Shown here: one piece after another, positions 1 to 22,906 of the stretch | How positions within the stretch are numbered: position 1 is the stretch's first letter | Layout of the letters: every line of letters begins with the position of its first letter | From: Umbilicaria muhlenbergii | Lineage: Eukaryota > Ascomycota > Lecanoromycetes > Umbilicariales > Umbilicariaceae | Length of the DNA: 64,000 nucleotides | Assembly (NCBI GenBank): GCA_000611775.1 | Contig: KK106982.1 | Location: 5,877,736 to 5,941,735, forward strand | Reading direction: 5' to 3' | Translations under genes and position numbers: made by a program | The notes under the pieces: model-generated | The model's database searches: none | What the model was told of the DNA's origin: nothing | What the model saw: the letters and a program-made list of their open reading frames with translations, nothing else

Positions 1-1713
1 CGGAACGAATAGGCGGATATCCTACTCCCAATCAACTTGCCAATTCTCCCATCGACGCTACCACTATAGATTCCGAAGGACGCTGCGTTGTCCTTGAGTT
101 TCCAGCGTTTGTCCTTCTGGGCGTGTACAGTCCAGCCAACCGCGACGAGTCAAGAGACGACTTCCGTTTGGGCTTCCTCGATCTGTTAGATGCGCGCATT
201 CGGAACTTGGTAGACATGGGCAAACGAATTGTGCTGACTGGAGATCTGAACATCTCAAGAGAGGAGCTAGACACCGCGAATGCGGAGGCATCTATGCGCA
301 AGAGTGGTTTTACGGAGCAGGAGTATGCTTCAACACCAGCCCGCCGCCTATTTAACCAGCTTCTGGAAGGTGGCAAGGTTTTTGGGGAAAGAGACGAAGG
401 TAGAGAGAAGCCAGTCTTATGGGATACCACTAGGGGTTTCCATCCTTATCGAAAGGGCATGTTCACATGCTGGGAGCAGAAGAAGAATGCAAGACCGGGG
501 AACTTTGGTTCTAGGATAGACTATGTGCTATGCAGTCTGGACATGAAGAACTGGTTCTGCGACTCAAACATTCAAGAAGGATTACTGGTCAGTGAGAATG
601 GCTGGCTGTATCAAGCCTCGACTGACTCAGCTGCAGGGATCCGATCATTGCCCCGTTTATGCGACCATGAAGGACAGGATCGTGGTGGATGGCAAAGATA
701 TTGATCTAGTCGATGTGATGAATCCTCCTGGCATGTTTGTCGGCGGGCAGCGACAGCGGGATTATTCTATGAAGGATATGCTTCCGATGTCTGGTAAGCT
801 CATTCCAGAGTTTGACCGTCGGAGGAGCATTCGCGATATGTTCTCGAAGCCTTCCCTGCCCAGAGGCCAGAGTACCGCATCATCGATGGTAATACAGGAA
901 AACACACCCATAGCTGCGGAAGCTGATGAGTTTGACGGTCGTCGCCCGGTTGAGAGAGAAATAGGAAGTTCGCAGATAGATGGAAGCGAGCCTGCATCTC
1001 CGATACCGCCAACACAGGCTCCGAATTCTTTTAAAAGTGCCAGTCCAGCATCAGTGCCTGCTGGAAACAAACGGCCCGTCAGCGAGATGTCTACCAATAG
1101 ACCACTGAAACGTGTGAAGTCTGGGTCGTCAGCGTCGGCTCCTAACGGGGCAGGGAAAGGGCAGCAAAGCTTGAAGGGCTTCTTTAAGCCAAAGGCAACA
1201 GTGCTAGTAGACGCTGTTGGCAATGGCATCGCTGATGTACCATACTTTGCCCAGAACGGCAACAGCAGTGCCGCGTCGTTGCAGCCAGTTGCGGAAACAG
1301 TCGAACGACATCAGACTGTAGATGCGACTCAGCAGTCCCTGACTCCGGCCCCTTCGCAAACCCCTTCGACGCCTCCCGTCGCCGGGCCAAGTCCTTTGAA
1401 GGGGTCCAAGCCCACCGGCACATCCCCATTAGCCATCGGCCACGGCAGCGTTCACGACCAGGCGGAGGTGCATGATCCCATCGAAAGCAAAGAGTCCTGG
1501 TCGAAGCTCTTCACCAAACCCGCAGCGCCGCGATGTGAGGGTCACGACGAGCCGTGCATCAGTCTGTTGACGAAGAAGAGCGGGATCAACTGCGGCCGGT
1601 CTTTTTGGATGTGCCCTCGGCCACTGGGACCGACGGGGGCCAAGGAGAAGAATACACAGTGGCGATGTCAGACTTTCATCTGGTGTAGCGATTGGAACGG
1701 GGGCGTTACATGA
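1..1713 (+). CDS. apn2: AP endonuclease 2 (Apn2), 5' end cut by window
   Basis: Exons 1-587 (open at the left edge, frame starting at base 3) and 637-1713; intron 588-636 removes an out-of-frame stretch and joins GLL to GSDHCPV. This class II AP endonuclease/3'-phosphodiesterase works in nuclear base-excision repair. Seen in the sequence: exonuclease III-fold motifs GDLNIS, GSRIDYVL and GSDHCPV (catalytic Asp-His), then a long low-complexity linker, a PCNA-binding PIP box QQSLKGFF, and a C-terminal GRF zinc finger (NCGRSFWMC with flanking Cys/His). The N-terminal metal-binding residues lie outside the window. APN2 is a classical flank of ascomycete MAT loci, which fits the MAT1-1-1 and SLA2 genes to its right. 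Family assignment is firm; only the missing start is unknown. Confidence 0.95.
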
Positions 1714-3143
1714 GACATGGCGCAGGAAGGAATGGGAATGGGATATCAAACAAAGCGGGTATCGGCCGCCGCGGACGGCGTATATGAGCCAGGAGGCATT
1801 CGGGGCATGTCGGAAATTCATCGCATCTTGCTTGTAGGATATTAGATATTTGGCTCGTGTACAAGAGTCTCGGATATCCCCCACTCGTTCCTAAACACAT
1901 GGCAACTAGATGATGCGCCAAAGCTACTTCGAACTACGATACGGCTCCTTGTTCTTTGTTGCTGCTGCTACTTGAAGAGGTTCTCGTGGACGTCGTCCCG
2001 AGACATGCACCATCCGCATCACGGAGACCATTGAGCTGCCGAGTTCTTTCCAAGACAAGCAGACTACACGTAGATATCTGAAAGTAATGTCCAAGAGCAA
2101 GGGCTCCGTCGAAGGCGAAAGGGACATGGCAACACGCTATGATGGCATTGTGGGAACCCCATTGGGGACAAGGCAAGGGGAGTGAATGTGATCCAACCAC
2201 GATCTGCAAGGAACCGATGACGATATCCGATCCGGCACAAGACATTTTAGCGGGGGCTCGTCCAAAGCTCTTTTCGTTCTCGTCCCCCACCGCAACGTAA
2301 AGGCCGTAACCTTAGCGGCGTCCGCGCCTTCGGCCTTCCGGTAAAAGGCGAGCTCGAACTCATTCACACAACACGGCTGGGGAACAACACTGACAAATCC
2401 ATCCATTTAGCCTTTTCTCCACACAACGGCTGGGAACAACACTGACAATTCATCCATTTAGCCTTTTCATCGTCAAGTGAAAAGCGGTCCGAATGGGGTC
2501 AAGCTCGACCGTTGCCATGGCCGCGGGCTGGCTCGGCTGGGGTGGTGACGGGCTAAGCGAGCCAGAAAAGCGAGGTGGCTTGGGACGATCCCAGCCGATC
2601 GGGGCGTCTGTGCGCAAACCTCAACAACACCTCACCTCACCTCACCTCATTCCAGCACGCACGGCCTTGGTTCCCTCGGGTCTCGGAGCTTGGAGTGTGG
2701 ACATGGAATGGAATGGCCTTGGTGTCTCATTGTCACGCAATGCGGCTACGGCATAGAGGAGAGACAGCAATTGGAGTAGAGTGGATTTCATAGCTGTGCG
2801 ATCTATCTGAGTGTGATCTACTACTACAAATGTAATCCACCAAACTCGCTTTTTTATGTGTGCTGCACATGTGTAAAACAGTACAAGGATGTACAATGAA
2901 ACGTGTTAGGGGAGAAAAAGGTACAAGGAGCTTCTTTCGAAAACGAGCCTCCCTGTCGGTCTTGACTTTCCCTCCCCCGAGTTTCCCATGTAAAAAAAGG
3001 TATCTGTGCTGAGTGCTGTGCATGAAAAAAGGGGTTCCAAACCAGGTACACGCTCTTGGAGAAGCCTTGGCCGCCCACCACCTACACCGAGCTAAGCAAG
3101 CTGTGCCCAGTAAGATGCTTGGACGTGTCAGTGCTGGAGATGC
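1714..3143. other. Intergenic stretch between apn2 and the first MAT-region gene
   Basis: No convincing gene on either strand; the ORFs here are short and lack splice-linked partners. It holds an imperfect tandem duplication (about 2367-2470) and a short CTCAC microsatellite near 2630-2648. It contains the 3' flanks of two convergent genes, and probably the left boundary of the MAT idiomorph. Confidence 0.6.
2367..2470. repeat. Imperfect tandem duplication, about 52 bp x 2
   Basis: The block from the ACACAACACGG stretch to TTTAGCCTTTTC occurs twice in a row (starting near 2367 and 2419) with a few single-base differences and small indels. It is non-coding on both strands as far as can be seen. 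It looks like a recent local slippage or duplication event just outside the MAT idiomorph. Confidence 0.75.
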
Positions 3144-3965
3144 CTACGCAAAGCTGTAGTTGCCATCCATGAAGCTATTCAGGTCAAAGTCGTCGTCCAC
3201 CTCGGTGTCTTCCACGTTGGTGTTGGTGACAACGCTGTCTTGCCCGAAGCTCTCCTGCGCAGACATTTCTTGTTCCAAGACCTTCTGTCGATTAACGTGT
3301 CCATCAGAGTAGGCACCAACTCGAAAGTGTCCGCATTTGTATAAGTCAAACAATATGGTCTGGTGGTTCGGAGGGAGTGCATTCCAGGCATTATCAGTGT
3401 TAACGGCGTTATCGGCAGGTGCGGCAATCGTGGCCGCGGTCTCTTCTTAGTCTCTTCGGTCACTTGCTCCCAGTCGATTAGAATGCTGTAAAAGTTCCTG
3501 CCGCTCACCGAGACTATCTCCTCCTCTGTGTTCATAGAAGGGGTTAATAAATCATTAAAGAACCGCGTGTTTAGGTCATCATCGCCGGCTGAGGCTTGTC
3601 TTCTGTGTATAACGTTACTCACAATTGTGCTGTCGATAGGACAGTGTCCCGAAAGGCGAATGATTGCGTTGCCAATCTCAGTCTTCCAAGGTTAGCGATG
3701 GCCAAGCAAAATTCAGCAATAGGAAGGGAGGTTTACCAAATAGAGACTTGACTAGATGACCGCCGACTGAGCCGTATATCGGACGGAGGAAGATGAAGTA
3801 ACATGTATTTCAGAGATCCCGACGAGTACAGCCACATTATGGCGAGAGATCATTAGCTTGTTGTGGGAGTTTCTGGGGGGCCAGCGCGAATTAGAGTGCG
3901 TACGACATATTGATCTTCTCTCTAGTCTTGACAAAAGGGTATGTCCAGTATGGGACAATATCCAT
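3144..3965 (-). CDS. Unrecognised multi-exon gene in the MAT1-1 region (5' model tentative)
   Basis: The last two exons are well supported: 3509-3682 (reads TEIGNAIIRLSGHCPIDSTI and on) and 3144-3440 (ends DDDFDLNSFMDGNYSFA, stop at 3144). They are joined by intron 3441-3508 with a GTGAGC donor. An intron at 3683-3736 (GTAAAC donor, CGCTAACC branch site) precedes them. Upstream is uncertain: a 204-aa model can be built from 3907-3965 (ATG at 3965), 3803-3872, 3737-3751, 3509-3682 and 3144-3440, but it needs a 34-nt intron and a weak GTTACT donor to skip an in-frame TAG at 3752-3754. No domain is recognised and there is no HMG or alpha box. The C-terminus is acidic. It lies head-to-head with the 290-aa gene at 4332. 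It could be an idiomorph-specific accessory MAT gene or a decaying one. Confidence 0.5.
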
Positions 3966-4331
3966 CGCACAAATCTTGCCTTCAAGATGATACAGAAGAG
4001 TACGGTCTACGACCCTGATCAGCTTGAGATAGATGGGTGAATGAAACAAGAACAAAGACCATAATTCACTCAAAGCTAAGAAACTTACGCCTTTTAAATG
4101 GCTCGCGCCAAATCTGAATCTTGTTCTGGCACTAGCTAGGGGCGTTGCACAGCATTGTTCCAATAACACTTCAGAGCTCACAGACCAACCTTCATCACGA
4201 GGTACCAGTCAACACTGGTCTACAAACTTATCCTGCCAAATCCACCTCTTCTCCTACACCGTTCAGCCAGATCCACGATCTATCAAAAACAGTTCCGTTC
4301 ACGAACTTCACAGCTAGGAACAGGACGAAAG

Positions 4332-5489
4332 ATGTCGGCCGAAGACCAAGATGAATGGGATTCCAATCTCGAAAGCTCCGCCAACAGCAGTGAAATTGAA
4401 GATTGGGAAGTTCTTGGGGTCCACGCTCTCTATCTTGATAGCGATAAAGGCTTGACCGCTGGTATTTGTCCAAGAGCTTCATCTTGGTGGTAGTGCTAAT
4501 TGTGACAGCTCACCCCGGAGACTCATTCCACTCTTGTTCACAGGACTTTCTTCAAAGCCTGATAGACGATCTGCTGGAAACCAGAGCAATTTGCCTAGCC
4601 ACCAGAGATTTCGAGGATGCTGGGCTCGATCACGATGAGGTTGAAGAGTATCTAACAGTGTTCAGTGAGGAGTTGGACCGTCTAGACAAACACCCTGAAC
4701 TCTTTCCAAGCGAAGACATGCGCCACCAGTTTTTTCGTGCTGTCCATCAGATCCTCCAAGGCTGGGATGCGGCATTCGACAAAATCAAGGCAACGCAGAT
4801 GGCACTTAAGGACATAGCCCAGGAAGCTGTCAATGAGGTAAATGACCTTGCCAGACCCACGTATACAGTGAATCGAAAACCCTGGCAGCAATATTTGCAC
4901 AACAAGGCTCCAGGGAGTGGTATTCATACCAGCGAAATGGATCAAGAGGGATCCACCCAAATTTTCACACCAGGAGCAATGAGACTTTGTGGCAACTGGG
5001 ACAGAGTGTGCTACAGCATCATGAAGGAGATCGACAAAGTGAGTACAACATCCAGGATTTATCTCCTGATGAACACCAGAAACTAATAAACATGCATACG
5101 GACCAGACCCACAAAGGTGACCCTGTCTATCGTCCAGTAAGTGTTCTGGAGACCTTATGCCAGAGTCCAGCTAATAGCAGTAAAGGGGCTAACTATCAGG
5201 CCCGGCCACCCTGGCATCGCACCTAACGGGCTTTTTCGCAAGATTCGGCTTGTGAGTATGTGATCGCTCTCCTAAGACTTCGTACTCACTTCACTCAGAT
5301 ATCACCTAGACTCACCATCCCTATTGTAAGAATCTTTCATTGCAGCGAAAGCGAACACTCTTGCTAATTACAAAGGTTTCGGATGAATCCCGTACGAATG
5401 ACGTATTTGGGGAAAAGGAGCTGGCGGAATTGAACCTCGACTTTGGTAAGGCGGTGAAGGGTCTTACAGAAGAGCTTGACGCTGATTAA
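4332..5489 (+). CDS. Unrecognised six-exon gene inside the MAT1-1 region (290 aa)
   Basis: Exons 4332-4461, 4509-5038, 5117-5136, 5200-5251, 5299-5325 and 5376-5489 add up to 291 codons, ATG to TAA, with every phase agreeing. Introns have good signals: GTATTT..GACAG, GTGAGT with ACTAATAAAC branch, GTAAGT with GCTAACTATCAG, GTGAGTATG, and GTAAGA with GCTAATTAC. The protein is acidic at the N-terminus (MSAEDQDEWDSN), mostly helical-looking (FLQSLIDDLLETR, VEEYLTVFSEELDRL), and shows no domain I recognise. It sits directly upstream of MAT1-1-1 in the same orientation. Secondary idiomorph genes (named MAT1-1-10 and similar) are known at this place in Capnodiales; whether this is one of them is inference by position only. 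Confidence 0.72.
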
Positions 5490-6012
5490 ACATACTAGGG
5501 TTCTTTCAAGCAACGCAAAATCGGCGGCTGGTGAGAAATGCTGGTACTGGTGTACTTGTGCATGACGTTGCAATCCCTAAGGTCTAGGCTCCGGGCGTAG
5601 TAGTTAGCCTAGGAATGTACTCAAGGTGTCCCTTACGTTGAAAGTAACAATAGCTCAACCATAAATCTTGCTCAAGAAATACAGAATGATCCCTTCTTTG
5701 AAATTCATTGTTGTAGACGACCAATAAGATTGAAAGCCTTGAGCGTACTAGTTCTTTGTTACATCCAAAAGGTTAATCCGCCAGTGTTGACCAGCCACCC
5801 GAGATTGTCTCATAACACATAAATACATCATTTTGCACTCAACCATGTAATAACAACCACCTCGATCATTGTTCTCTTTCTTTCTTTCTCACAACTGCAA
5901 CCTCCACCAAAGCGTCGCTCAAGCTTCTTTATCTTCAGGATCAGACCCGTCATAACTCTTGAGGCTTGCTTTATCGAGATACCACTTTCCACAAGACAAC
6001 TCTCACCTCACG
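5490..6012. promoter_or_regulatory. Upstream region of MAT1-1-1
   Basis: Gene-free 523 bp between the 290-aa gene and MAT1-1-1. It ends with a pyrimidine-rich stretch (about 5870-5893, repeated TTTC units) of the sort found in fungal core promoters, followed by an A/C-rich leader just before the ATG at 6013. No specific operator is recognised. Confidence 0.45.
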
Positions 6013-7408
6013 ATGTCGCTTTCCGCTGAGAATTCGATGCCGGTGCCACCAGCTTTTCACCAGCTTCTCCATAGTTATTCGGCTGACCAAATCATCGCAA
6101 TGGTCCACTCAGCTGCTCGCGTTAACGGTCAGTCTGGAACAACCGAAACCAAAGTCACCAAGCATTCTTTGATTGCACACCCAAAGAAGAAGACCGCAGC
6201 TGTAGCTGCAGCTTCGAAAGCAACGAGGCCGCTCAACTCTTGGATCGCCTTCCGTAGTAAGTTAAGCGCAATAACATTGTGTGCCTTGTTAATCATTTTC
6301 AGGCTATTACTCCCCGATGTTTACTAGCGTCCCGCAGAAGGAGATTTCCGGATTTCTCACGTACCTCTGGCAGACCGATCCTTTCAAAGCCAAGTGGAGC
6401 ATCCTCGCTAAAGCGTACTCCCTTATCCGTGATAGTAAAGGCAAAGAAAAAGCTCCTCTCGACTCCTACCTGGCTACCAATGGCCCGTTCATTGGCATTA
6501 TCCCCCCCGAGAACTACCTGGAGATGCTTGGCTGGAAGATTGTTGCCGGTAACGACGGCGAGAGACTCTTGCGTCGTGACTTTGAAGTCGACGTCTCTTC
6601 TCTTGACCAAGATCTGCTCACCAGTAACGTTTCCGTCAATGACATTATCGAGTACAGCTATGCTTCTGGTTACATCGCGGCAGACGAAGCCAACTTGATC
6701 GTACCAGACAACGAGCCGGTGATGACCATGGCGACGTCGGTGCAGCTCAATCTCCCAACCAAATCGGCATACTCCGCTCCAGTGAATATGGCCATCTCCG
6801 ATGCTTCGGGTCCCACAACTGCAGTTACTATGGCCGACGCTAATGACGCATTTGAGCAAAACCTTTCGCGCGCTTTGAGAGCAGAGGCAGAGAAAGACGG
6901 AATTGGGAGCGAGCACCAAGACGAGGAGCCGATGGAAGGGTCTTCAAACGACGACGATGACAATGGGATCGCGCATGCGGACTATGAAGCCACAGAGGAG
7001 ACACCGTCCTTGAACGAGATGGATACAAACACGCTAGATTCCATGGATACCTACAGTTCATTTGTTACTGAAGCGGTACTGGACGACTCTGAAGTTGGTG
7101 CAAACACACAGACTGCTCTGACCCCGCAAGTCAGCATCCCTACCGGGCAAGTCCTCGGGCAAGCTGGGCAGGCTACCGTATCGAACCACACTCCGCCAAC
7201 CTTCGATATCGACATGACACTGCTCCCAGCGGTCAACCTCCTGAACAACAACGCCTTTGCGTTCGCCGAGGATGATCATTACCCGTTCAACAGCCTTTTC
7301 TCTCCAGAAAACAATGTCCTCGAGTTTGATCCTTTCATGGGAGATTCTTTCAATGCCTATGACTTGAGTGATTACTTCGGCATCCTGTCCTACCCATATT
7401 TGGGCTGA
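6013..7408 (+). CDS. MAT1-1-1: Mating-type protein MAT1-1-1 (alpha-box transcription factor)
   Basis: Exons 6013-6256 and 6303-7408 give 449 aa. Intron 6257-6302 (GTAAGT..TTTCAG) splits the alpha box after ..WIAFR, the position conserved in MAT1-1-1 genes. The alpha domain (about residues 70-165) is clear: RPLNSWIAFR, SYYSPMF, QKEISGFLTYLW, DPFKAKWSILAKAYS, and GIIPPENYLEMLGW. The remainder is acidic and low in complexity, ending in an aromatic tail. The protein is a nuclear DNA-binding regulator that sets MAT1-1 identity and switches on pheromone and mating genes. The ATG at 6013 is chosen because it is the first in frame with the alpha box; upstream in-frame codons are non-ATG. It is flanked by APN2 and SLA2. 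No HMG-box partner is seen, so the strain is presumably heterothallic MAT1-1. Confidence 0.96.
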
Positions 7409-7962
7409 TGGTGAGTGGATATGCGGTGGTGGTTGTACAAAGTGGCGGCTGACTTCCGACTAGACACTGGCAGTCCTCTTCGACGCACATAGTGACATGG
7501 GCATGACTGCTAGGGCTCGGCTGCACTATCTTGGCAGATGCGGTAGGCAAGCTGTTCAGGATGCTGTGTGTAGCGAGTGCGTCAACATCGGTGTTCATTC
7601 CATGTCTTTATCGTGCGATCAGGCAGAGGCGGCCAGCGAGGGGATAGCAACGGGGGATTGGGCGGACCGAAGCAGCGGCGATGAAAATGTTTTCCCTGGA
7701 CATGCTTCAACAGCACAGCTTTGCACCCAGCACATGTCTTTTACAGCACAAACTTGCGAGCACACACTTCCCCCAGTACATGTTCTTGCCACCGAGTTAG
7801 GATAGCAGAATGAAAAGCACGAGACAGTAGATAGAATGCAGCAAGAACATGTCGAAACGAAGAGGGCGCAAGGAGATGTGATGGGGTGAAGTCCAAGTAA
7901 AGATTTGAGTTTGCCTGCTGATTTGCAGCAGCCCCTGCAGCTTGGCAGTCCCGCCGCGGTCA

Positions 7963-7998
7963 CACGCCTGACGCATGACGCCTGACGCCTGACGCCTG
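7963..7998. repeat. Short tandem repeat, GACGCCT-type heptamers
   Basis: About four to five consecutive copies of a 7-bp GACGCCT/GACGCAT unit in non-coding DNA between MAT1-1-1 and sla2. This is simple slippage-type repeat; no function is implied. Confidence 0.75.
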
Positions 7999-9994
7999 CC
8001 CCGGCCGGAAAGAGCGCCAAGAAGGTCGGCGGCACGCCCAGTCTCCAGAGTGCGCTGCCCACCAGTCCCTCCGAGTACTTACGAGTACAGCGGAGGGAAT
8101 CCTACTGCGTACCACTTGCTATGATCTAGAGTATAATCTAGAGTATACCAAATCCAGTCGTGCCCATATCTAAGTCTTCTTCCCGTGTCCATGTTCCGAT
8201 TGACATGTTCATGAGCCAAAGGATACGGCCAATGTCGGGCTTCAACTGCTTCCTGCCTTTGCACTTGTCGTCGCTGCGAGTGGGAAACACGTATCTTTGG
8301 TGACATATCCGAGCCCGCGTGTATCTATCTACAATGTTTCCCAGTACGAGCGGTCTTCCATCGGTCCCAGGGCCAGTTGTATCTTTCTTAATGACCTTCT
8401 GAAGCCTGCAACGCAAAGAAGTCTCCCTTTGATCGTCCTTGGCATCGTCCACTACGTGCCCCAACCTACATTGATTGGGAAGTTCTGTACATTATAAAGT
8501 ATTCGTCTCGATGATTTCAATAGGCCAATTACGTGACAAGCGTTTCTCTTTTACCTGTACAGATTCATTCTACTGGCTGTGTACTGCTCGCGATTCTACC
8601 GGGTCATTTTCCGGCAGTAACTTGGCAGCAATTCTGTTTGAGCTTGAGTAACTCGCGTCGACGCCACCAAGGTACATTGTTCCGCACGCCAGGCCCAAGT
8701 GAGAGTGCTGTGTGCGATTTAGAGCTAGCTAATGTACATCCCTTTGTATCCATCATAACCATCTGCAGCGACTTTTTCGCTCTGCCGACGCTCTTGGCCC
8801 CAAGCATCCCTCTGCATCCATGACAAAACCTGCCTTTGATGAACCCTCCTCGAACAGCAGATATAGAAGGATTACGTTGCAGGGTCACAAGTCTATCACT
8901 CCAAACTCTCGATGGACCATCCTGAAGGTGGTTGGAAAAGACGACCTCGCACCTTGTCTAATTAAACTATCGTTCCGCGGTACTTCATGTGTTCTGGTAA
9001 GCAGAGACCGGGCTCTCCAAATCCCCCTTTACTATTGCCCCGTTCTTTTTTTGGTCTATCAAGCCTTTGCTCATTGTTGCCAAATCTACTCCGAGCGCAA
9101 GACCCTTGACGGGGCACCAAGGCCGTTACAAAGCTACAATCTCTACAGCAAAGGTCGAGATTCAACCCCAATCGCCCACCGTACATGGCCGCCATAATGC
9201 TTGAAACAGGAAGACAGTGCCTCCAACAACACCAACGAGCGGTTCCCTAGCGAACGCGCCTCCTCCTGCTTCACGCCGGCCGCCTCCGACATCCCAAAGT
9301 AACCCCCAGCCTTACCGACACCAGCCCTACCGAGCCAAACACCACAAAAATCCCAACCTCTCCGTCCAAACCCCGCCACTTCCAGCCCCTCCGCCCCTCC
9401 CCGAAACCCCAACCACATCTCTCCAGCCCCTCATCCTCCTCCAGCCCCCTCTCCCCAACCACACGGATCCACCCCCGCCCACCCCAACCATCCACCGCCT
9501 GCACGAACCCACCTTACGAACCCACACCGGGCGACGCGGCAGAGAAAGCAGGGCGAACACTCCCAGCAGAGCGTCCATCAAGGATGACATCCCCTAGCCA
9601 ACCTCCTGTGAGAAGGATAGGAGTACTACAGCGAGCATCGGCTGGTGGGCAGGAGGATACCAGTGGGGAGGTCGAAGCTGGTTATCTACAGGTCCAGAGA
9701 TGGAATTCCGGGTTCCAGCGCTCTCGTCGTTCTAGCCATAGCTTCTAAAGTCCTACACCAACTGCACACGAACACATACACAACACTCTGCCCACTGCGC
9801 CACATTCGTATCGTCAAGCACCGCGAGTCCCAGTCTCCGACATCCCAAGTAGTTTCGGATTCTATTCCCGTAGCCAGAGGCAGTACCATGTACGCTAAAG
9901 TAGCAAACGACTTCCAACCACCATCGTACAAAGCCAACCCGCTCCCTCTCCCTACTCTAAGAAAACCCCCCGTCCCCGCCTACAAGCAGCCCAG

Positions 9995-10050
9995 CTACTC
10001 CATCCCCATCCCCATCCCCATCCCCATCGTCATCATCATCATCATCATCA
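9995..10050. repeat. CATCCC and ATC microsatellites abutting the sla2 stop codon
   Basis: Several CCATCC hexamers run into about ten ATC triplets. The triplet run reaches the TGA stop of sla2 (10051-10053 on the minus strand), so length changes would alter only the 3' UTR unless they spread two triplets further. Confidence 0.8.
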
Positions 10051-13000
10051 TCATTCCTGATACGAAACCTTCCGCATCTCACCCAACCTCTGCCTCGCCT
10101 GCGCCAGATTATTCTCCAACTGCAGAATCTCAACCTACACCGCCACGTACCCAGATATTAGCCCACGCAAGCCCCTCAGCGCACAGGAACAAAAGACTAC
10201 AAAAAGGGAAAGCACGACGAACCTGTTGCTCCATCTCGCGAACCTTGAACTCATGCCCGCTCAAAGCCGCATAATCGACATCCTCCCCCTCCTCCCGATT
10301 CCGATTCTTGATAATCTCCTGCACCTGCCGGACCAAGCCCCGACAAGCCTTGCCGACGGCCTTACTCGCATCCTCGAGTCGGTCTTGCGTCTTACTCCCA
10401 AAGTGCGCCTTGACCCTCGACGCGGCGACCAGCTGCGCCGTGCTGGCCGCCACGTCGTTGCTCGCGACGATCAGCTGCTCCGGCGAGTTGCGCCCGCTGA
10501 TGACGCCGTCGGCGGTCTCGATGAGGGTGTTGGTGGAGGTGGCGACGGCTTTGGCGGCGCTGATCAGACCCTCGGTCCAGCGGTTGTTTTTCTTGTAGAA
10601 GGCCGTGCGCGACGAGGAGCCGCGGCCTTCCTTGACGATTTCTTGCTGGGAGGCGGTGGCGGCTTTGATGAGTTGGGCGATGGCGTTGGTGACGGCGATG
10701 GCGGCTTCGAGAATGCTGTCGTGGATCTTGAGTTCGTAGGTCGAGTATCCGTCCCGCGGTTTCTTCTTGAGCTTGTTGAGCCGCTCTGCGGCTGCATCGA
10801 TGGCGTTGGCGGCGTTGGTTAGTTCGCGATCTACCAAGTCGCCCAGGTCGCCGACCGCGTTTGTGATCTTGCCTGATTTCGGGGCGAAGGCGTCTGCGAG
10901 TTTGGAGAGCTTCTGGAGGTTCATTAGGACTTCGTGGTTGTTGTTTATGACCACGTCTGTCTTTTGGGTATCTTCGAGACCTTTAAGTCGGAATGATTGG
11001 AGAGCACGGAAGAAAGTAATAGTTGCTTGGGCCGATTGACGACTCGCGTTGATCAGTTGGTCAGCCTTCTTCTCCTCTGTAGCGAACCGCGTAAGACCCT
11101 TAGTGTTACTTAGGACATCGGCAATCGATCCGGCAAAGACGCTGACGGTGCGAATAATCTCGGCATGCGTGCTATTCGGCCCATCTGCGATGAAGTTGTT
11201 GAAGGCCGTAGAGAACTCCGTTGCGCTTGACGATGCTTTTTCGATCTGTGACAAGACATAGGGCGCAGAAGCGTTTTGATTACCTGCCTGCATCGTGGAG
11301 TCTAGCTCATATAGCGCATCGTCCACACGCTGGACACCACTTTGCAGCACCGAGTCGATAATGTCGTTGATCTTCTGGATATTGCTAAGAAGGACTTGGT
11401 CGATCTGCTCGTCCAAAGCCTTGTCGGTATCTCCACCGTTCTAAGCAGCATTAGCGACGGCTAATCAAACGCTTGCCGTGTGATCGTGACGTACCATCTT
11501 CAGCTCGTTCAACTCTAGCAACGTCTGATCCATACCAGACTTGTAGATCTCTAGCTCCTCCTCTTTCTCCCTCAAAGCACGATCCAAGTCCCCGTCCCGT
11601 TCTCCATACTTGGAGTGAATATCCTCCAGCGCCCGCGTCTTGTTCTGTTTAGTAGTCAGCACCATCCTAAACACTCATGTTCCACAGCAACGAACCCTAA
11701 GAGCTTCCTCCAGATCCGCCATCTCCCTGTTGTACTTTGCCAACATTGACGAGAGCTCCGAGCCCTTGGCGCGCTCGGCGTTGTCGGCTTTCTCCAGTGC
11801 AAAGCGAAGCTCGCGCTTGAGCTTTTCGACCTCTTCTCTGTTGCCACCTGTAACCCGATCCTTCTCATGGAGGGCTCGGTCCCTCTCCCGGATCATATCT
11901 GCCAGCTCTAGATTCTTCGTCTTCATCTCCCTTTCCAGCTTTTCCCGCTTATCTATAGCTTCCTGCGCTGATGCAGCCTTGAGCTGTACCGACTTGAATT
12001 TTTGTAACAGCTCTAGATGCTCGTGGCGTAGCTGAGAGTATAACTTGGCGAGTGCTTCGTACTTTGTCCGCCACGTGTTGACCTGTTCTTGCAGCGCTCG
12101 TATTTGATCGTCCTTTGATGCTGTTTGCTGGCTAAAGTTATTGTTGAGCTGATTCAGCTGGGTTTCGAGGTCCTTCATTCTCCTGTCGTACTGCTCCAGC
12201 ATAAGCTGGTCTTGCTCGTACTGTGCCCGAGCATTGAGATTCTCCCGCTCAAGCTCAGCCATGCGACCTTGTGTCTGCGCCTGGTACTGGTCCCGCATTA
12301 GCTGCTCCTGCGCCAACCTCTGTTGTTCAGCTTGTAATCGTCGTTGCTCTTCAAATTCTCGCTCTGCCTGCTGCTGAGCCAGCTGCTGTTGGTATTGCTG
12401 TTGGTTCCATTGCTCTTGCAGCCTCCGCTGCTCAGCATCGTACTCATCCTGCTGCCGCTTTTGCTCATTCTTCCAGAACTCATTGATCGGCTCAGGATCC
12501 GGAGCCGCTGCTCGTGATGGCATAGGCGTCGGCTCCTTTTCCTTCGGCTTCTCGAGTTCTTTGGTCGGCCGCCGTGGCAATGCGGGTCGTTCGTCATCTT
12601 CTGCAAGGAGATTGGGCGGTTCCTGAGGTAGTTTAGGTACAGTAATTAGACTAGTAAGGTATCGTAGGTTCGAGCATTCATAGTAGAATTTGAGGAGACG
12701 ATAATGTTGTGTATCGTATCTTCCCCGCAAAGGCTCCAGAGCGTCGTCATCGCCAGTCGCTAGAGTCAAGTCAGATGTATCCCAGTAGACTCCCCTAGAA
12801 GAGAGAGAACCCACTGGTATGCATTGCCCGAAGCATGCTCGTAATGAACTTGTAGATCCCATAGCTTTCTTGCACTAGTGGTACCAACGCAGATATCCTA
12901 CATTCGTTGTTTGCCCCACTTCGGAAGTTCGAGAAGATGAGCCTTTGGAAGCTGTCGATTTGGTCTTGAAGGGTCATGAGGTCGGAAATAGTCTCGTAGC

Positions 13001-13912
13001 TGTTATTCGTTACTAGAAACTCTGGGGTGCATGCAACGAGAGGCGGAGCCTACCCTTCATTGGGATCATTAATGGATTTCAGACTGATGTACTCCTCATA
13101 TTCGAAAAGACCTGAGAGTCCATGTCAGTTGCTACGTCATTTCTGTATGACCGTGGAACATACCATTGAACTCAGGATGCTGCTTATGGAAGGCCAGCTT
13201 CGCCAATAGGAAGTAGACATACTCCCGCAGCAAAGGTCCATACCCTTGATCCAGTGTCAGTCTCACCTCCCCCGAAGAACGAGCCCCTTCTCTAGGTGAA
13301 ACAGGCCGCACCCCTGTGTACAACCATCAGAGACGACTTACCCCTGAGTCCGTCACCAGAAATTCCCCTTGTCAGGCTCTCTAACCAATTTATATTATTC
13401 TGCGCTTCTTTGACCGCAACAGGATGTCCCTCCTGCAGCACTTTATGTATGGTGATAAGGGCTTTGAAGGTCTGAACTTCGTCTGCGAGGATAGGTTGCC
13501 TAGAAGAAGAGTAGTCAAAGCGTCAGCTTAAAGTGGCACCGAGAGACATCGGGGTACCCAACAGAGTCGAGTGTTCGTAGACCCACACTTTCATGCCAGC
13601 CCAGAAGGATTGCGAGGACTTGTGGTCCCAGGTGTAGACGATGCATGCTCGCACATGTTTGCCTTTGAGCTTGTAAGAAATTGGAGCGTAGTAAGGAGAG
13701 ATCGAACGGTGCCTTACGTTTCGGGGCCGTCTCCTCTGAGGCAGATTAGCGAAGCTGATGTGGAGGGTGAAGTGGCTGAGGCTCACCAATGCTAGTAGCT
13801 TTCCGTATATTTACGGCTAGGTCTGATTCTGATCTGTGCAATGGGTGAGAAATGGAAATTCTGAGAGCCCCTTGGGAGATGCCATGTGCCAGCAATTGAC
13901 TCACCTGCTCAT
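10051..13912 (-). CDS. sla2: Endocytic actin adaptor Sla2 (ANTH + THATCH domains)
   Basis: Twelve exons: 13905-13912, 13787-13833, 13718-13735, 13587-13662, 13342-13499, 13164-13244, 13054-13111, 12815-12999, 11696-12759, 11495-11644, 10223-11440, 10051-10134. They sum to 3147 nt, 1048 aa, the usual Sla2 length. The start reads MSRSESDLAVNIRKATS. An ANTH domain (about residues 5-275; KHVRACIVYTWDHK, YGPLLREYVYFLLAK) binds PI(4,5)P2. A long Gln/Glu-rich coiled coil (about 330-680) follows, then a C-terminal I/LWEQ (THATCH) actin-binding domain ending in a short coiled coil. Sla2 (HIP1R family) links clathrin-coated pits to actin at the plasma membrane. It is the standard right flank of ascomycete MAT loci. 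Two introns start GTTCGT; one exon is only 8 nt and carries the ATG. Confidence 0.96.
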
Positions 13913-14552
13913 ATCAACATTGCGGGTGGTGTTGGCCGCCCCATATGGGTAGGACATAGCCTGGTTCCCTCTATTCCCAACACGCCACTGTTGATCAGAG
14001 TATGATTAAGAGTTGGAGAGAGCAATGAAGAGAAAATGTTAAGAGGAAAGGAAGTACTGAGAGAGGCGTGTCTAATACTGAAGGTCGAGGCGCATGAGAA
14101 GGCCGAATTGGAGCTCTCCGCAGATCCCTGTCGTCGCCGCCTACAAGCTTGGCAGCGGGTAACGTCAGAAGTCGATGAGGCCGCGTATGCTCTACAACAC
14201 TCCCCTAATGTATGCCTACTTCATGTGGAAGTCGAAAATGGGTAGATAGAGTAGCTGATCTACATGTCAGAGCTACTATACACCGTGGTCTTCGCTTTCA
14301 CTTGGATAGTCACCATTCATCGGGCCATGAACGAAGATTGATGAGTTGTGAAGCTCTCTACCTGGACGCGACCCAGTCTGTTCTCAGATAGCCGTCCCTA
14401 GTTGTTGCCCTTAGAGTGCGCCAAGCTTGGAGACAGAATTCGCATGCACTGTCCCTCCCTTCCCATTGCTGGATGCTGCTTGATGCAATGTAACGCCTTA
14501 GAGACCTTGACCCAACCTGCAAAGAGACAACGCCGCCGGCAGCACAAGTATA
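13913..14552. other. Intergenic region between sla2 start and nvj2-like stop
   Basis: Holds the upstream region of sla2 and the 3' flank of the next minus-strand gene. No coding sequence is supported. Confidence 0.55.
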
Positions 14553-17336
14553 TTACACCTCCCCATGCCCGCCCAACCAAACACTTTTCGACCTTGCTTC
14601 TTCCTCCTGCGCCGCCTGCCAACTTGAGAATGCATCCTCGTCATTGTCAAAAGTACTCGAAGTACGCCCGGTACGCTTCGAGGAGGATCCCACATGAGTC
14701 GAAGATGGCGAATCCGCTTTGGCAGGCTCGGGTAAGTCATCATTATCGTTTTCATGGCCAGCCGCCACTGGTTTTGTGACGTCCTTCCGAATATCTTCTA
14801 GCGGACTCGCTGGCTCCGAGTCTGGTGGCGCTTCTACTACCAGCAATTCTTCGTCGTTGGCATCGTTAACGGGAGCGGCATCCACTCTCCTCCTTGCCGG
14901 AAGAGCTGGTGGTGGAAGTGGCCGCGATTTCGTTTCGTCCTGCCGACGGTTAGGTAGCAATGGTGGAGGCAAGGGTTTCCGCTTCGGTACGTTGATAGGG
15001 GCCGTCTTCGTGCTAGGTCGTTCAGGTGGCGGTAGAGGTTGACCAGGAGGCGGAAGAGGACGGCCGCGCCCTATAGGATGCTCCGGGGTGCCTTCTCGCT
15101 CGGAGTATTCAGTGGCAATTTTCTGTTCGTTGCGACTGAGAACACCCCATCCCCATTTCTTCGCTGCTGCAGTTGCGGCACCGATGGAAGGAATGGACTG
15201 CCTCTTCTCCGACGGAGTTAGCGATCGCGCTATTGACTGTAGCGCTGTTTGGTGTAGAGGTTCGTTTGGAAAAGCAGACTTGGCGGAGTTCGAGCTGATG
15301 CTGGTGGGTGTTGTGGGGAAGGAGGCCTGGCTTGAGTTGTTAAAGCTTGATGGCGTGACTGTCTGCTCCATGATGCTATCGGCTTCGGAAGACGTTGACG
15401 AGAAGCTGCCGCTTTTACCGAGCTGAGACATGTTAGACGACTCAGGAAGAGAGCCGATAGGAGTAGCTGTGGGCGATGTTGGTTGAGAACGGTTACTGAT
15501 AGCTATCATTGCACTCGCGGCATCTCGCTTCTGTTTGGCTTTCGTCTCTTGTTTTGCCGCATCAACGTTTGCGTTATCCGTGTTGACAATGGGGTTGGCT
15601 GCGGCCGCAAATGAGTGCGCTCGCATCATCCTTGGTGGCTCAGAATATTTCTGTACACCAGAAGAAGACCCAGTATCTGTAGTATCCACCAGGTTGTGGG
15701 TCGATTTCGACGCTTTGCGTGCAGTCAAAGATTGTTCAGAGGCATCCGGAAGCACTGACATGCTCATCGTTCTCTCATCCCGAGGACTTGGGGGAGCAGG
15801 AGAACTTGAGCCTGACTGCATACTGGCCTCGGCTTCGTCTTCGCCCTCTTGATCGGGCACCTGAGTGGCGGAGGGAGAAGACTCTGCCACATTCCGCTCC
15901 CAGATACCGCCTCTGAATTGCTGATCCACGGTGCTCAGGAACGGACTGTCATCCCAATTCGGATAGACTACGGTCTCAGCAAAGACTTCTATGATCCTCT
16001 TCTCGATTTGTGAGAGGATGAAACCGTACGTGATTTGCATAGAGCTAACGATAGGCTCGATAGTCATCTCCAGGGTTGGCATCGTCTCAAAGGTAACCCA
16101 GAGGCGATTACTAGGAGGCGGCTTGAGCCGTAGGAGGGCGTGGCCTTCGAGCTTCTTCACCACCACAGCCAGAACCAGATTGACTTCTCGAGCCTTGATC
16201 CGAGATCCCAAGTCAATGCGGGCAGTAGTAGCAATTTCGATTCGAAAATTGCCGGTATACGTGAAGTCTGCCTCCGCGACACAGTCACCGTCCACAGTAA
16301 GATCCTTCAGCTTAGGGTTCGTGATGTACGGTGCCCCCTCGCCCATGTCGATTTTCTGTAGTATGATCCCTGACAGGAATGTGGGTTTCTTAACACGAGC
16401 GATCTTCTTCGTGATCTTCTTGCGGACAAAGTCTTCGATATCCTTTGTCTTGTACATAGCCAAAAAAAGCCGACCAACAAGCCCATTTATCCATCTTGTC
16501 TGTAAATGTTCCTCGGAAGAATGTAGTCGCTGTACGAGACCAATGATATGCTTTACTTCGAATTGCTGGGGCTTAGGAGGACTGTCTGCAGCGTCGGGTG
16601 TCTTCTCCTGATTTTGCAACAGCGCAAAGTAGAAATCTTCCTTGTCTGAGCAATTATCTGAAAACAAGTAGAAAGGCTTCGACGTTGACGTAATGTTTCC
16701 CAGGTTCGGTTTCCTCATCAGGCATATAGCATGCCTCTTGATCCACAGTTCCCCTTCAGGTATCTCGTTTCCTCCACCATAGACACTCACATCGTGATGA
16801 GCCAAGGATATCACATGCCGTACTTCCACCTGTTCCTTGTCGTCGTAAAGCATCAGGTGCCCATGCCTCAATACCACGTAGAACCAATTCCTCGCTCTCC
16901 TCGCTGTCTTCTCATTGCCCTTCCCAGGATCTAGACTCGAGCCTTTGTTTCTCTCGAAGAGACTGCTGTACATGCTCTGGTACACGCTTGGGCTTTTCGT
17001 TCCGACTACTGTTCCGGCTGGCGTAGTCCTCTCCGGCGGCTTGCCATTGACACCCCCTGGTACGTACTCGCGGCATACTATGAACCATTGTGCGGCGACG
17101 TCCGGCTCCCTTCCTCGCAGAAACTTCTCAGGAATAGTGTCTGAGCCCGACCTTAAACTGTGCTCATCATCACCAGGACGACGAATGGAGCCTCCTGCGT
17201 GAGGAGGAGTGTTGGAGCTTGAGGAGCGTGTGGGCAAGGTGAGGTAGGCATGGAGAAGAAATAGACAGATCAGGAGGGGAAGAAATGTCAGCCCGCCGAC
17301 AAGATAGATGGACAGGAAAACGGAGAGGGTCCCCAT
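14553..17336 (-). CDS. nvj2: Nvj2/TEX2-type lipid-transfer protein (TM + PH-like + SMP)
   Basis: Single exon, 927 aa; the ATG at 17336 (MGTLSVFLSIYLVGG) starts an N-terminal membrane anchor (about residues 5-35). A PH-like region follows (about 70-240; NWFYVVLRHGHLMLYDDKEQVEVRHV begins its core), then an SMP domain (about 265-480; RWINGLVGRLF, YITNPKLKDLTVDGDC, MTIEPIVSSMQITYGF). The remaining half is Ser/Pro-rich disorder with poly-Pro blocks and several PxxP motifs. Family members sit at ER contact sites (nucleus-vacuole, ER-Golgi) and move lipids such as ceramide. A PH-domain gene of this kind next to MAT is familiar in Capnodiales, supporting the taxon guess. Confidence 0.9.
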   Translation of the reverse strand: MGTLSVFLSIYLVGGLTFLPLLICLFLLHAYLTLPTRSSSSNTPPHAGGSIRRPGDDEHSLRSGSDTIPEKFLRGREPDVAAQWFIVCREYVPGGVNGKPPERTTPAGTVVGTKSPSVYQSMYSSLFERNKGSSLDPGKGNEKTARRARNWFYVVLRHGHLMLYDDKEQVEVRHVISLAHHDVSVYGGGNEIPEGELWIKRHAICLMRKPNLGNITSTSKPFYLFSDNCSDKEDFYFALLQNQEKTPDAADSPPKPQQFEVKHIIGLVQRLHSSEEHLQTRWINGLVGRLFLAMYKTKDIEDFVRKKITKKIARVKKPTFLSGIILQKIDMGEGAPYITNPKLKDLTVDGDCVAEADFTYTGNFRIEIATTARIDLGSRIKAREVNLVLAVVVKKLEGHALLRLKPPPSNRLWVTFETMPTLEMTIEPIVSSMQITYGFILSQIEKRIIEVFAETVVYPNWDDSPFLSTVDQQFRGGIWERNVAESSPSATQVPDQEGEDEAEASMQSGSSSPAPPSPRDERTMSMSVLPDASEQSLTARKASKSTHNLVDTTDTGSSSGVQKYSEPPRMMRAHSFAAAANPIVNTDNANVDAAKQETKAKQKRDAASAMIAISNRSQPTSPTATPIGSLPESSNMSQLGKSGSFSSTSSEADSIMEQTVTPSSFNNSSQASFPTTPTSISSNSAKSAFPNEPLHQTALQSIARSLTPSEKRQSIPSIGAATAAAKKWGWGVLSRNEQKIATEYSEREGTPEHPIGRGRPLPPPGQPLPPPERPSTKTAPINVPKRKPLPPPLLPNRRQDETKSRPLPPPALPARRRVDAAPVNDANDEELLVVEAPPDSEPASPLEDIRKDVTKPVAAGHENDNDDLPEPAKADSPSSTHVGSSSKRTGRTSSTFDNDEDAFSSWQAAQEEEARSKSVWLGGHGEV

Positions 17337-17712: not shown

Positions 17713-20700
17713 TTACCATTCCAAAGCACCGAATCCTGCTTCCTCCAACACCTTTATGACGGGCTCTGTGACAGCCCTTGTGCTCCCTAAACTAGCCATA
17801 TGTCTAGTCCTGGTGTAGAAGACCGGACAGTCTTTACTATCGCACTTGACCTCATCTCCCCATGGGATTCCAGCACAAGACCTGCACACCTCTAGGAGGT
17901 TGACAGCCCTTTTGTTCGCCTTGTTCAACTTTGTACGTAACGTCAAGAGCGAGGTCTCCGCATGTTGCAGACACCTGTTGCAAATTGGTAACTCCGCTTC
18001 AAGCTTCTCCCGGCACACAAGGCATGCTGAAGACTTCATGTATGACTCTAAAGTCTTCTTTGACATGAGAAGATTCCTACCATGGGACAGAGCTTCGGCT
18101 TCGACGCGGCGTATTCGCTGGAACTTAGGCATCTCGTCGTACCATTGACGGACATTGGCTCCAACGAGATTGAAGATACGCTCGAGAGGGGGGATCAGGT
18201 TCTTTGATATGTAGTATTCCGCGTCCAGCTCGTTGTGCTCGTTGCGTAACAAGACATCCGGCGCTACGCAGCGGTCGATCAGTCTTGCACCGGGCGCTCC
18301 TGTTATCACCACGTATGGTACTCGCTCTCCATACTGAGGCTCTGCTCGAGGGTCCTCTAACATCCTTTTGCTGCTGATGAGTGCTCCCGGTGGAGGCGGC
18401 CCCTTGTCACTGTATGTACCGAGCTTGACCTCTTTGGCGAAGCAAAAGTCTTGGATCGAGACTTTACCTTTCATGATCTTAGTGCATTGCTTCTGGAAAT
18501 AGCTCTTTACTTGACTCAAGTCTGCAGTCCGGAAAAGGATCTTCAATGCTTTCTCTTCGATCTTTTGCTCAGCTGGTGTGCCGTCGCGGCGAACAGTCTC
18601 GATGCCTTTAGCATCGAATTCGGGTTCTTTCTGCGCCCTGCTTTCGTACTTGAAGCCGACGTAGCGCTTTTTGGCGAGGAGGACACATGGAAAGTACACT
18701 TTCTCGAACTTGAGCTTGACCGGCCTTGGATTCATTTTCGTGATTGTCTTGGCTATTTCTTCACCAATATCAAAAGCCTCGTCCTTGGTGCGCCCCTTGA
18801 GGTAGACAAACAAGCTGTCGGTGTCACCATACACGACTTCGGCACCCCATCGTTCCACGGAATGAATTAATGCAATGGCTTTCTCTAGCGTCTCACGACC
18901 TGTCTGCACAATGCTATCTGCTATCTCGGAGCACGGCATGCGCCCAGAAAACGAGGCCGAGGTATACCCGTACGTCACATTGGCGATCAACTTGAGCGCA
19001 AGTTGTCTGTTGTTTAGGAGGCGCTGCAGCGTCTTGTCCTCTTTGTCGACTTTCATCCCGCTCTTAACCATGACTCGAGTCTCCAAAATCTCGCCTAGCA
19101 TCTTGGCTAACAAACTCTTACGAATCTCAGGCTTGACGTACATGATTCCGTTTGGAGCGATGTTGATGTAATCTTTCAGAAGTTCTAGCAGTCTCTGTTC
19201 CCGCTTGAAGTCCGTGAAGCCCATTTTATTCTGACCACGCCAGTTGACTACCCTTCCAAGGAACGTAGAATAGCAGTAGTTGTATGCGATCATTACGCTC
19301 GGATATAGCGACTGAAAGTCTAGCACGAGCAGAGGGCTGTTGTAGAAGGCACTTTGCGGTTCCATGACTAAAGGTAGACACTCCAAGGCGTTCTGTTGAC
19401 CCACTTGTCTTCGACTGGGCGATACAAGAAGAAAGTTCTCTGGCTTCGCGATTCGGAACATGAGGGACTCAACCTTGAATTGAGATCCTCTGGAAAAGAC
19501 AGAGAAAAAATCCACGCCGAGAAGTCGAGCCTGCTCGCTTGTTCTAGGGACAAGCTCGTTCTGCTCAAGAATCTCGAGGTCCAGTTGTACTCTCGAAACA
19601 TAATAATCCAACATCTTAGCAAGCTCGCGGGGTTTGTTGCTGCTGTACCAGGCCGTCAGATCTTGGTGTGCATAATGAGGTATGCGGCGGTGAAGCAGAT
19701 GGAAAACAACATTTTCCATGGTATACTGCAACAAGTTTAGCTCGCCTCGCATTGCACGCCAAATGTTGATCATGTGCCGCCCAGTGACTCGAATGGTCGA
19801 GGTGTGATTGAAGCCCCATCGATCATTCTCCTTTCCAAATCGACCGTGTGACTGTGATTTCATGCGAGAGAATTCATCGCATAGATTGTAGTCGTATTTA
19901 CATCTCGCTCGCTCAATCATGTAGCCCCAAGAACCCCCATGAACCTCGTAGCCTGTCAGAATATCAGGATCGTAATGCCGAACAATGTCCACCATGCGGT
20001 TGATTAGATCCAGTTCGGTCGACTCATGCTCTACTTCCACGGTGGTCTGCTGAGAGATCTTCCGGGCCAAGTTATCCTTGCCAGAGAGCGCTAGTATTCC
20101 AACGTGCGTCCCTTCATTGACACCGTTCACCTCAAGGTCTTCGTCGTCGGACTGCAAACACCAAAACAGGCAAGCAATCTCATCCTGTTCCGGATTTGGA
20201 AGAAGGTTGCCACGCGTGTTGACATGGATCTCCAGGCCCATAATGCTCATGTACTGCGTTTCGTGTCGTACACTGGTAGACCTCTGCTTTTGAGAGTATT
20301 TGAAGCCATGGCGATTCTTCTGAGTAGGTCCATCGATTTGAGAGATTACGCTCCTGGATGCGCTATCACCAGCCGGCAGCGAGATTGCTACTTCGCCGAG
20401 TACTGGACGCTTCTGTCTGAGCCAGGTCTCGACCTCCATACACGAGGGTGGAAGTTCGGCGATCTCCCAAGTCCTTAGCCCACACGCTCTTCTGCGCTTC
20501 TCGTAAGTTCTTCCTTCCACGATCTTGTCCACAACAACCCCCGGTTTCTCGCCAATGCTAGCCGATGAAGTTCCCGTGGGATCAAAGTTCGGTAAGTAAG
20601 GCACGGTGTTACTACCGAGTTTGAATTCTCTACCTGCATACTCTCTTGCACGTTCCGGTACATCTCGTTCATCGCCGTAATAAGCTTCTTGGTAAATGAC

Positions 20701-22906
20701 CGGTGGGATCTTGACATCGTGTATCATGGACGAGATCTCCAACGCAGGCGGAGGACCCTGGGCCAAGACGATGATACTTGTGTGGCTAGGTAAATCGAAT
20801 GCTCCATGGATGCGTGAAGACAGCTTCAAGTGTTGTGAGTAGACCTCGTTGACTGCCATGGCTTGCTCCGTAGAATCGCTTTTCAATGATTCGCTCTTTG
20901 GGTTGCTCCAGATCTGTGAACCACTCTCAGATGATTTGCTAAATGAGACGCTTTTATTTTTGGAGTTCTGAGAGCCCTTGCCCGGTGAATTACTTCGTTG
21001 ACTGAGTCGCAGGATAGTATTAGGGTCCTGCGGATCCTTGACGACAGGGAATACAAAAGTTCTGTTGCGGTCAATGTTGCTGAATCTTGATGTCTGTTGG
21101 GATGACGACTTCGGCGCGAAAGCGTCGCTGAGACTCTTGGTCCTCGGCCCAATCCCATCCACAGACTCCCCGTAAATTCTTTCTAGGTTGTTCGGGAAAT
21201 TGTCCAACACCGGCGACGGTTCGTCATGAATGAGCTTCCGTCTTTTTTTCGGCGGCTCGGACGGAAGCGACAATGGTTTTGCTCGCTCGTGGCGTGCAAT
21301 AACAGCGGTAGTATCGCTAGCATATTCCAAGGGTATCTCAAAAGCGTCTTCCTCAATATGACTATAATCACTGGCCTTTCTGATTCCTACTGCTTTAAGT
21401 TCCTCGGAACTTATAGAAGCTCCGGGCTTAGCTGAGGGCGCTGGTTCTGTTGGGCCTTGAAGATGCTCTCTATCGTTGTCGCCGTTGGTCCTCGCTCCAT
21501 CGTCGCACTTGGTCTCTATGTTTTCTCCGTTCACGTACTTTCCCTCAGCATGTTCTCCCTGTTCCCGTTGTGATGCATCTAGGTCCGGAGCAAGCTCTTC
21601 ATCGACATCGTAGAGGAAACCATCGCCCTCGAAGGTCGTAATACGGCTCTCATCCACGTCCACGATGTCATCCAGGGAACCATCTACCGCGTTTTCGTCC
21701 GATTGTTGCGATATCTTTTGCGATACGTGGAGATTGAGGAGATTTCTAGGGAACAGATCTTCCACGCTTTCCAAGACAGTCTTAACCTGCTCTTCGAATG
21801 GTGGCTTCTGAACGAAACCATCGAAGGTGATATTCTTGCCGTCACTGTTTGTCTTCTCCTCCGCTATGATTCCTAACACCTTTTCCATGTACTCCTCTTC
21901 GTGTATCCAGCCACCGCGTTGAGAATTCCTACTCTCTGCAGACATTGAAATCATGACCTCAGGTGGAAAGGGGCTACTGTCGGGATCTGTTTCCCCCATT
22001 CTAGCTTTCCTTCGCCGGGTTTCATCTCGCCAGAGGCCTGCCATGCTATGCACAAGCTTCTCATCTGGGGCCAAAGGGTTGCTTCGCTCGATGAAGTCAT
22101 GATGCAACGGCCTAGACTTGATCTCAAGCCTGTTCAAGATGTCTTGGACACATATATCCACTTCAATTGAGCAGTGGCTCTGCCGCGGCAGCTGTTCCTC
22201 ATCGGAGATCATCGAAGCAGGTATGGTCAGGTCATGCCATTGATGCACCGTACTGGTCATTTCGAGGTATTCTGGCACCGGGCTTCGGAACTTGACGTTA
22301 CTGCAGTCGAGATATGCGCAGCCGTAAAGATTGTAGTCACACATCCATTGCAAGATGTACTGCATATGACTTTCGTATGGTTGCATGACCTTCTTCATAA
22401 CCGTGCCTTGCTGCAGAAGGTCTGCCAGGCGAGTCATGTGTAGTGGGTTGAGCATGTAGATCTTCAGGAAGAACTTATAGCCGACGTGATATCCATAGAA
22501 CGGTGTGCCCTTGACAAGGGTGATGTGAGCAACAAAGGCGGTCTTGCCGTCGTATAGGTTTCGCCTGTAGCTAACAGCGAGAGCATGGTCGATGGAGAGG
22601 TGAAGGCGATGGATGTAGGCGTCCACTGCAGTAGATTAGAGATATCCGGGTTCATGCCAACCAGGATTGCTGACCTTCATCAGGCGTCAGGCCACCATGG
22701 TATTCGATGAACAGGTAAGGGAATGCGCCATGGATATGAGCGCACACCTTTTGACCCGTCTCGGTGGCGCCGAAGACGCGGATAACAGGAAGCTTCGGGA
22801 GGGCTTTTTGAGACGAGCCATTATCTCTGTAGAGTTGGGGATCGAATTCTGTCGGAGATGCTTGATAGTGGTCAACACAGTTGAGACGTACGCGGAATAG
22901 TTCCAT
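17713..22906 (-). CDS. rev3: DNA polymerase zeta catalytic subunit Rev3
   Basis: Exons 22675-22906 (ATG at 22906, MELFRVRLNC) and 17713-22625, with a 49-nt intron joining TPDE to VDAYIHRLHLSIDHAL; 1714 aa. This B-family polymerase extends past DNA lesions (error-prone translesion synthesis) with Rev7. The N-terminal domain is followed by a long variable linker (about 300-800), an exonuclease-like domain lacking intact acidic motifs, and the polymerase: motif A DFQSLYPSVM (about residue 1180), motif B KLIANVTYGYTSAS (about 1300), motif C YGDTDS (about 1345). The C-terminus has paired Cys clusters (CLVCRE..CNRC and CRSC..CDSKDC) that bind zinc and an Fe-S cluster with the accessory subunits. 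Length and motifs are complete, with no sign of decay. Confidence 0.97.

Follow-up and report, generated by a model that had tools for sequence, protein, structure and literature searches.

We identified, at the beginning of a 64,000-nucleotide stretch of contig KK106982.1, what is with a probability of about 0.93 the MAT1-1 version of the standard mating-type locus of filamentous ascomycetes, in a strain that would mate with MAT1-2 partners only and that carries two candidate accessory genes at the locus, referred to here as genes A and B. The whole stretch (bases 5,877,736-5,941,735 of the 7.0-Mb contig, in a 34.8-Mb assembly of seven contigs) is called the window below. The locus is an ordinary, well-formed MAT1-1 locus with the usual gene neighbourhood, the order being APN2, gene A, gene B, MAT1-1-1, SLA2, a PH/SMP-domain gene and REV3. 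It shows three features of a MAT1-1 idiomorph, namely, an alpha1-domain gene, the place of this gene between APN2 and SLA2, and the lack of an HMG-box MAT1-2-1 at the locus.

The alpha1-domain gene and its flanks

The gene on which this reading depends and its two flanking genes are located as follows (E, E-value; aa, amino acids).

6013..7408, plus strand: MAT1-1-1, 449 aa, exons 6013-6256 and 6303-7408 (PF04769, E 1.1e-42, 146 bits)
6257..6302, plus strand: alpha-domain intron, 46 nt, GTAAGT...TTCAG, as chosen by the gene-model script
6515..6535, plus strand: Y-L-E-M-L-G-W, motif of Pezizomycotina located past the alpha1 domain, by direct reading
1..1713, plus strand: APN2 (DNA lyase / AP endonuclease 2), 3' part (PF03372, E 9e-11; spliced model across the window edge)
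10051..13957 (start approximate), minus strand: SLA2 (I_LWEQ, E 2.6e-51; ANTH, E 2.1e-12; gene model and reading by eye)

The PF04769 match covers residues 52-215 of the MAT1-1-1 protein, and the intron follows residue 81, within the match. Two donors keep the frame, GTAGTA at 6254 and GTAAGT at 6257, of which the script chose the consensus one at 6257. The initial annotation had described an alpha-box gene with an intron inside the alpha domain, between APN2 and SLA2, and this description is confirmed, with 146 bits against a PF04769 cut-off of 28.1 bits. In addition, the YLEMLGW string fits the pattern Y-[LMIF]-x(3)-G-[WL], which is reported as a Pezizomycotina-specific motif past the alpha1 domain (PMC2999568). 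A fusion of alpha and HMG domains in one gene has been claimed for Exophiala viscosa; we rejected it for this window, since a search of MAT1-1-1 up to E 10 gave no match to PF00505. MAT1-1-1 exon 2 has no relative in a public contig collection, which says little, as that collection is not fungal.

Alpha1 proteins turn on the genes of one mating type. MAT1-1-1 would be an alpha1 (truncated HMG) transcription factor that activates the pheromone and receptor genes belonging to one mating type, and the strain would be able to mate with MAT1-2 partners only. Compared with the HMG box, to which it is related, the alpha1 domain is described as truncated (PMC2999568).

The APN2-MAT-SLA2 order given in the initial annotation is borne out by domain matches and gene models on both sides. 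The region had also been called complete with its flanks, and this stands in part: MAT1-1-1 is intact and both SLA2 and the PH/SMP gene are present, but the window begins within APN2, whose 5' part lies 0.6-0.7 kb before the window; a spliced model that takes in the upstream stretch is open to the stop at 1713. SLA2 lies about 2.6 kb downstream of MAT1-1-1; its script model comprises 972 aa from 13594, whereas reading by eye adds the short exons at the beginning of the gene, which the script missed, and places the start at about 13957.

HMG-box genes and the mating type of the strain

A genome-wide profile search found a single PF04769 match across the 34.8-Mb assembly, which is MAT1-1-1 itself. 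No HMG box was found at the locus: all of the 12 HMG_box matches in the genome at E up to 10 lie away from it, the nearest one on the locus contig being about 2.4 Mb off. The absence of an HMG box at the locus, previously judged from the letters alone, is thus upheld at this threshold. Two adjoining half HMG boxes (L006 and L008), which we take to be NHP6-like, were found by the same search, showing that it detects intron-split boxes; therefore, an interrupting intron should not have hidden a MAT1-2-1 box from it. With the sole PF04769 match in the genome being MAT1-1-1 and with no MAT1-2-1 candidate found, the assignment of the strain to MAT1-1, as first proposed, is supported. Since MAT1-1-1 is present and a MAT1-2-1 candidate is not found, the strain is most simply heterothallic and, accordingly, would be self-sterile.

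It seems improbable that the strain is able to switch or that it is unisexual, being fertile on its own with no MAT1-2-1. Although unisexual reproduction has been reported in Huntiella (PMC8867778), single-idiomorph genomes are taken as heterothallic in those parts of the literature on related loci that were available, and the only PF04769 place found in the genome argues against both possibilities.

Even less likely, to the point of being very improbable, is an unlinked homothallism in which an HMG gene elsewhere acts as MAT1-2-1. By our reading, L003 (contig 2, 3.48 Mb, 48.4 bits) and L004 (contig 4, 0.82 Mb, 39.6 bits) come closest in kind to MAT1-2-1 among the HMG genes. Both have HMG boxes above the Pfam cut-off, and L003 also has a sub-threshold PF04769 match, which speaks for this explanation. 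We tentatively assign L003 to ROX1 and L004 to ste11, and partly on these provisional grounds both were set aside in the whole-assembly search for MAT1-2-1, which yielded no candidate. The open reading frames (ORFs) of at least 180 aa scanned beside L003 (three of four) and L004 (the only one) include a SNF2-type helicase and a Sld5/PSF1-like protein, and show no mating-locus neighbour. In addition to the mating-type genes, Podospora reportedly contains orthologs of ROX1 and ste11 as its two MATA_HMG proteins, which would account for both L003 and L004, as well as HMG+SAM and HMG+amine oxidase proteins (PMC3730723). As the domain check found SAM + HMG in L005 and amine oxidase + HMG in L011, the HMG set here resembles the non-MAT set of Podospora. 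A further HMG-box match (L009, contig 1, 5.756 Mb; 21.5 bits, below the cut-off) stands in a frame that also holds a dynamin-type GTPase start, and is probably due to chance.

Several points weigh against a heterothallic MAT1-1 strain. A genome with MAT1-1 only can still be unisexual. In MAT1-1-1 itself, the alpha1 helix-1 consensus F-[MIV]-[AG]-F reads W-I-A-F, where three of the four positions fit and the remaining one is aromatic for aromatic. The dismissal of L003 stands or falls with its place, an ORF beside it and a putative C-terminal motif, and L003 also has a weak, sub-threshold PF04769 match of 13.8 bits. The check for further domains took nine of the 12 HMG matches, leaving out L006, L008 and L012, and the negative result for MAT1-2-1 holds for the 34.8-Mb assembly, whose completeness was not gauged. 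Moreover, one MAT1-2-1 protein reportedly falls within the ROX1 clade (PMC3730723).

Genes A and B

Two coding units lie between APN2 and MAT1-1-1.

3144..3610 (5' limit approximate), minus strand: gene A, coding unit without an assigned family (3' ORF 3446-3144, 100 codons, codon score 25.0)
4332..5489, plus strand: gene B (gene models; codon score 22.2 for the ORF 4448-5083)

The codon score was trained on 13 non-overlapping ORFs of at least 300 aa in the window, all beyond 9.5 kb, and applied to the 71 ORFs of at least 60 aa that touch 1.7-9.4 kb. Four of these 71 score above 20, namely, APN2 (25.6), the 3' ORF of gene A (25.0), the main ORF of gene B (22.2) and MAT1-1-1 exon 2 (about 77.4-78.5), while the fifth-best score is 5.6; the score is insensitive to short exons, MAT1-1-1 exon 1 reaching 3.3. 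The control consisted of 80 partly overlapping off-frame windows, each 100 codons long and free of stops, which peak at 12.2. None of the 80 attains the 25 of gene A, and one attains the density of gene B (about 10.5 per 100 codons).

Gene B is a credible spliced gene of about 250-290 aa. By hand it has about 290 aa in six exons (4332-4461, 4509-5038, 5117-5136, 5200-5251, 5299-5325 and 5376-5489) with a continuous frame and GT and AG borders throughout, the short exons being uncertain; by script it has five exons and 251 aa. Its Pfam matches are all far below the cut-offs, for which reason we rejected the hints among them (squalene synthase at E 0.043 and others) as chance. The predicted fold of exon 2 (176 aa) is helical, with a mean predicted local distance difference test (pLDDT) score of 54.9, too poor for comparison, and the lack of a relative of this exon in a viral contig collection says little, as the collection is not fungal.

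Gene A is coding at its 3' end, with no settled model for its 5' end and splicing, and has no Pfam match. Its coding signal switches frame near 3460-3431 on the minus strand without a gap or a clear intron, and its two best models tie (21.1 and 21.0), each depending either on GAG as a weak acceptor or on GTGACC as a donor; the one with the weak acceptor gives 107 aa. Gene A may therefore be broken, or carry an indel in the assembly, or have an unusual splice. There is a substantial chance, somewhat short of even, that gene A does not work as it stands, having decayed or carrying an assembly error, given the frame change and the tied models, although the 100-codon 3' ORF keeps a strong codon signal. 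Thus, where the initial annotation counted two further genes between APN2 and MAT1-1-1, gene B holds up as a gene, whereas gene A holds up as coding sequence at its 3' end without a settled gene model. The genome search found no second copy of either.

With one strain of the species at hand, any borders of the idiomorph, and with them the membership of genes A and B, would be tentative. Gene B, and perhaps gene A, would be lineage-specific accessory genes of the locus. The odds are a little below one half that they instead belong to flanks that the two mating types have in common, and that the idiomorph has the basic one-gene form. In line with this, a gene of no assigned identity beside MAT in Exophiala dermatitidis is reported in all isolates, including a MAT1-2 strain (PMC10484061), so a gene that lies between APN2 and SLA2 need not be idiomorphic; likewise, the authors of the Hortaea study expect the idiomorph to hold one gene and Unknown-1 to lie in the flank (PMC3744574). 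On the other hand, the extra gene in Teratosphaeria is reported to differ between MAT1-1 and MAT1-2 (PMC7513301), and the extra genes in lichen fungi to differ between the two mating types (PMC6414310). It is unlikely that genes A and B are two undescribed MAT1-1-specific genes, added to its mating-type switch by this lineage as a divergent (head-to-head) pair.

Neighbouring genes and comparison with known loci

Beyond SLA2 the window continues with two further genes of the neighbourhood.

14553..17336 (possible start 17336), minus strand: PH and SMP/MMM1-like domain gene, NVJ2-like (PH_11, E 1.1e-16, above the cut-off)
17713..22635, minus strand: REV3, DNA polymerase zeta catalytic subunit (DNA_pol_B, E 1.1e-106; best solved match 6v8p, itself a DNA polymerase zeta catalytic subunit)

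The SMP/PH gene that had been placed beside SLA2 is borne out by PH_11, its MMM1/SMP match being sub-threshold (E 0.0025, 17.6 bits vs a cut-off of 21.9). Before the window start lie CIA30, SAICAR synthetase, APC5 and a probable COX13, the last based on a one-exon COX6A match of 21.4 bits, under the cut-off of 25. APN2, COX13, APC5, SLA2, the PH/SMP gene and REV3 would be housekeeping neighbours of the locus. Between MAT1-1-1 and SLA2, the segment 9001-10050 is strongly asymmetric between the strands, with a GC skew of -0.352 at 9001-10000, and also holds proline-rich ORFs with a low codon score, and a trinucleotide repeat occurs near 10.0 kb, at the SLA2 3' end. Farther along the window, an aspartate-semialdehyde dehydrogenase is found at 48428-49664 on the minus strand (best solved matches of its C-terminal ORF 5jw6, 6c85, 4zhs, 5cef and 3hsk, 295-399 bits), and three adjoining ORFs at 58810-63213 on the plus strand together hold an RNA-dependent RNA polymerase (PF05183) that probably belongs to the RNA-silencing type.

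Some of these neighbours carry taxonomic hints. An SMP-type neighbour is also described in Hortaea (PMC3744574), which would be compatible with a possible place in Capnodiales. Most Chaetothyriales are reported to lack COX13 at the locus (PMC8900376, PMC7263672), so the probable COX13 near the locus here speaks weakly against this order, with the exception that Exophiala viscosa is described as having COX13 about 7 kb from MAT. None of the 39 scored out of 1116 first-look candidates matched the 5.8S rRNA; the ribosomal DNA may have been missed or be absent from the assembly.

The result establishes which mating type one strain has, and APC5, COX13, APN2, SLA2 and REV3 provide a clean anchor for the design of mating-type PCR (polymerase chain reaction) in the species. 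Genes A and B are two candidate accessory MAT genes worth comparison, of a class that is described in the available literature as mostly without known function. MATORF1 and MATORF2 were looked for as well, and nothing was found.

Extra genes in or beside MAT are reported to be common (PMC7513301, PMC10411609, PMC10484061, PMC6414310, PMC3744574, PMC9453070), including MAT1-1-10 in the MAT1-1 idiomorph of Teratosphaeria (PMC7513301), MAT1-1-4 in Exophiala (PMC10411609, PMC10484061), a gene between MAT1-1 and SLA2 in lichen fungi (PMC6414310), and ORF1-1-2 and ORF1-2-2 in Cladosporium fulvum (PMC9453070). An idiomorph with extra genes, which the initial annotation had regarded as richer than the basic form, is accordingly less unusual in view of the precedents described in Teratosphaeria, Exophiala, Hortaea and lichen fungi, and the locus with genes A and B appears to be a new case of the already well-described extra genes in MAT1-1.

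The MAT1-1 locus of Hortaea werneckii (PMC3744574) is alike in having APN2, a gene of no assigned identity, MAT1-1-1 with an alpha-domain intron, and a nearby PF10296 (SMP-type) gene. However, its MAT1-1-1 is described with two introns and 358 aa, as opposed to one intron and 449 aa here, and one gene of no assigned identity lies upstream of MAT1-1-1, as opposed to two units; moreover, SLA2, which flanks the locus here, goes unmentioned in the text of that paper. In Cladosporium fulvum, hypothetical genes likewise flank the MAT gene of the MAT1-2 locus with APN2 near, but SLA2 is reported to lie 1.43 Mb away (PMC9453070). In Exophiala, as here, APN2 and SLA2 flank MAT1-1-1 together with an extra MAT gene, MAT1-1-4, and in E. 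sideris a further gene is said to lie between APN2 and MAT1-1-4 (PMC10411609, PMC10484061). The gene of no assigned identity in E. dermatitidis is placed between SLA2 and MAT1-1-4, whereas both units here are on the APN2 side, a comparison by position only. Finally, the MAT1-1 idiomorph of Teratosphaeria has a second gene, MAT1-1-10, beside MAT1-1-1 (PMC7513301), comparable to the presence of further coding units beside MAT1-1-1 here.

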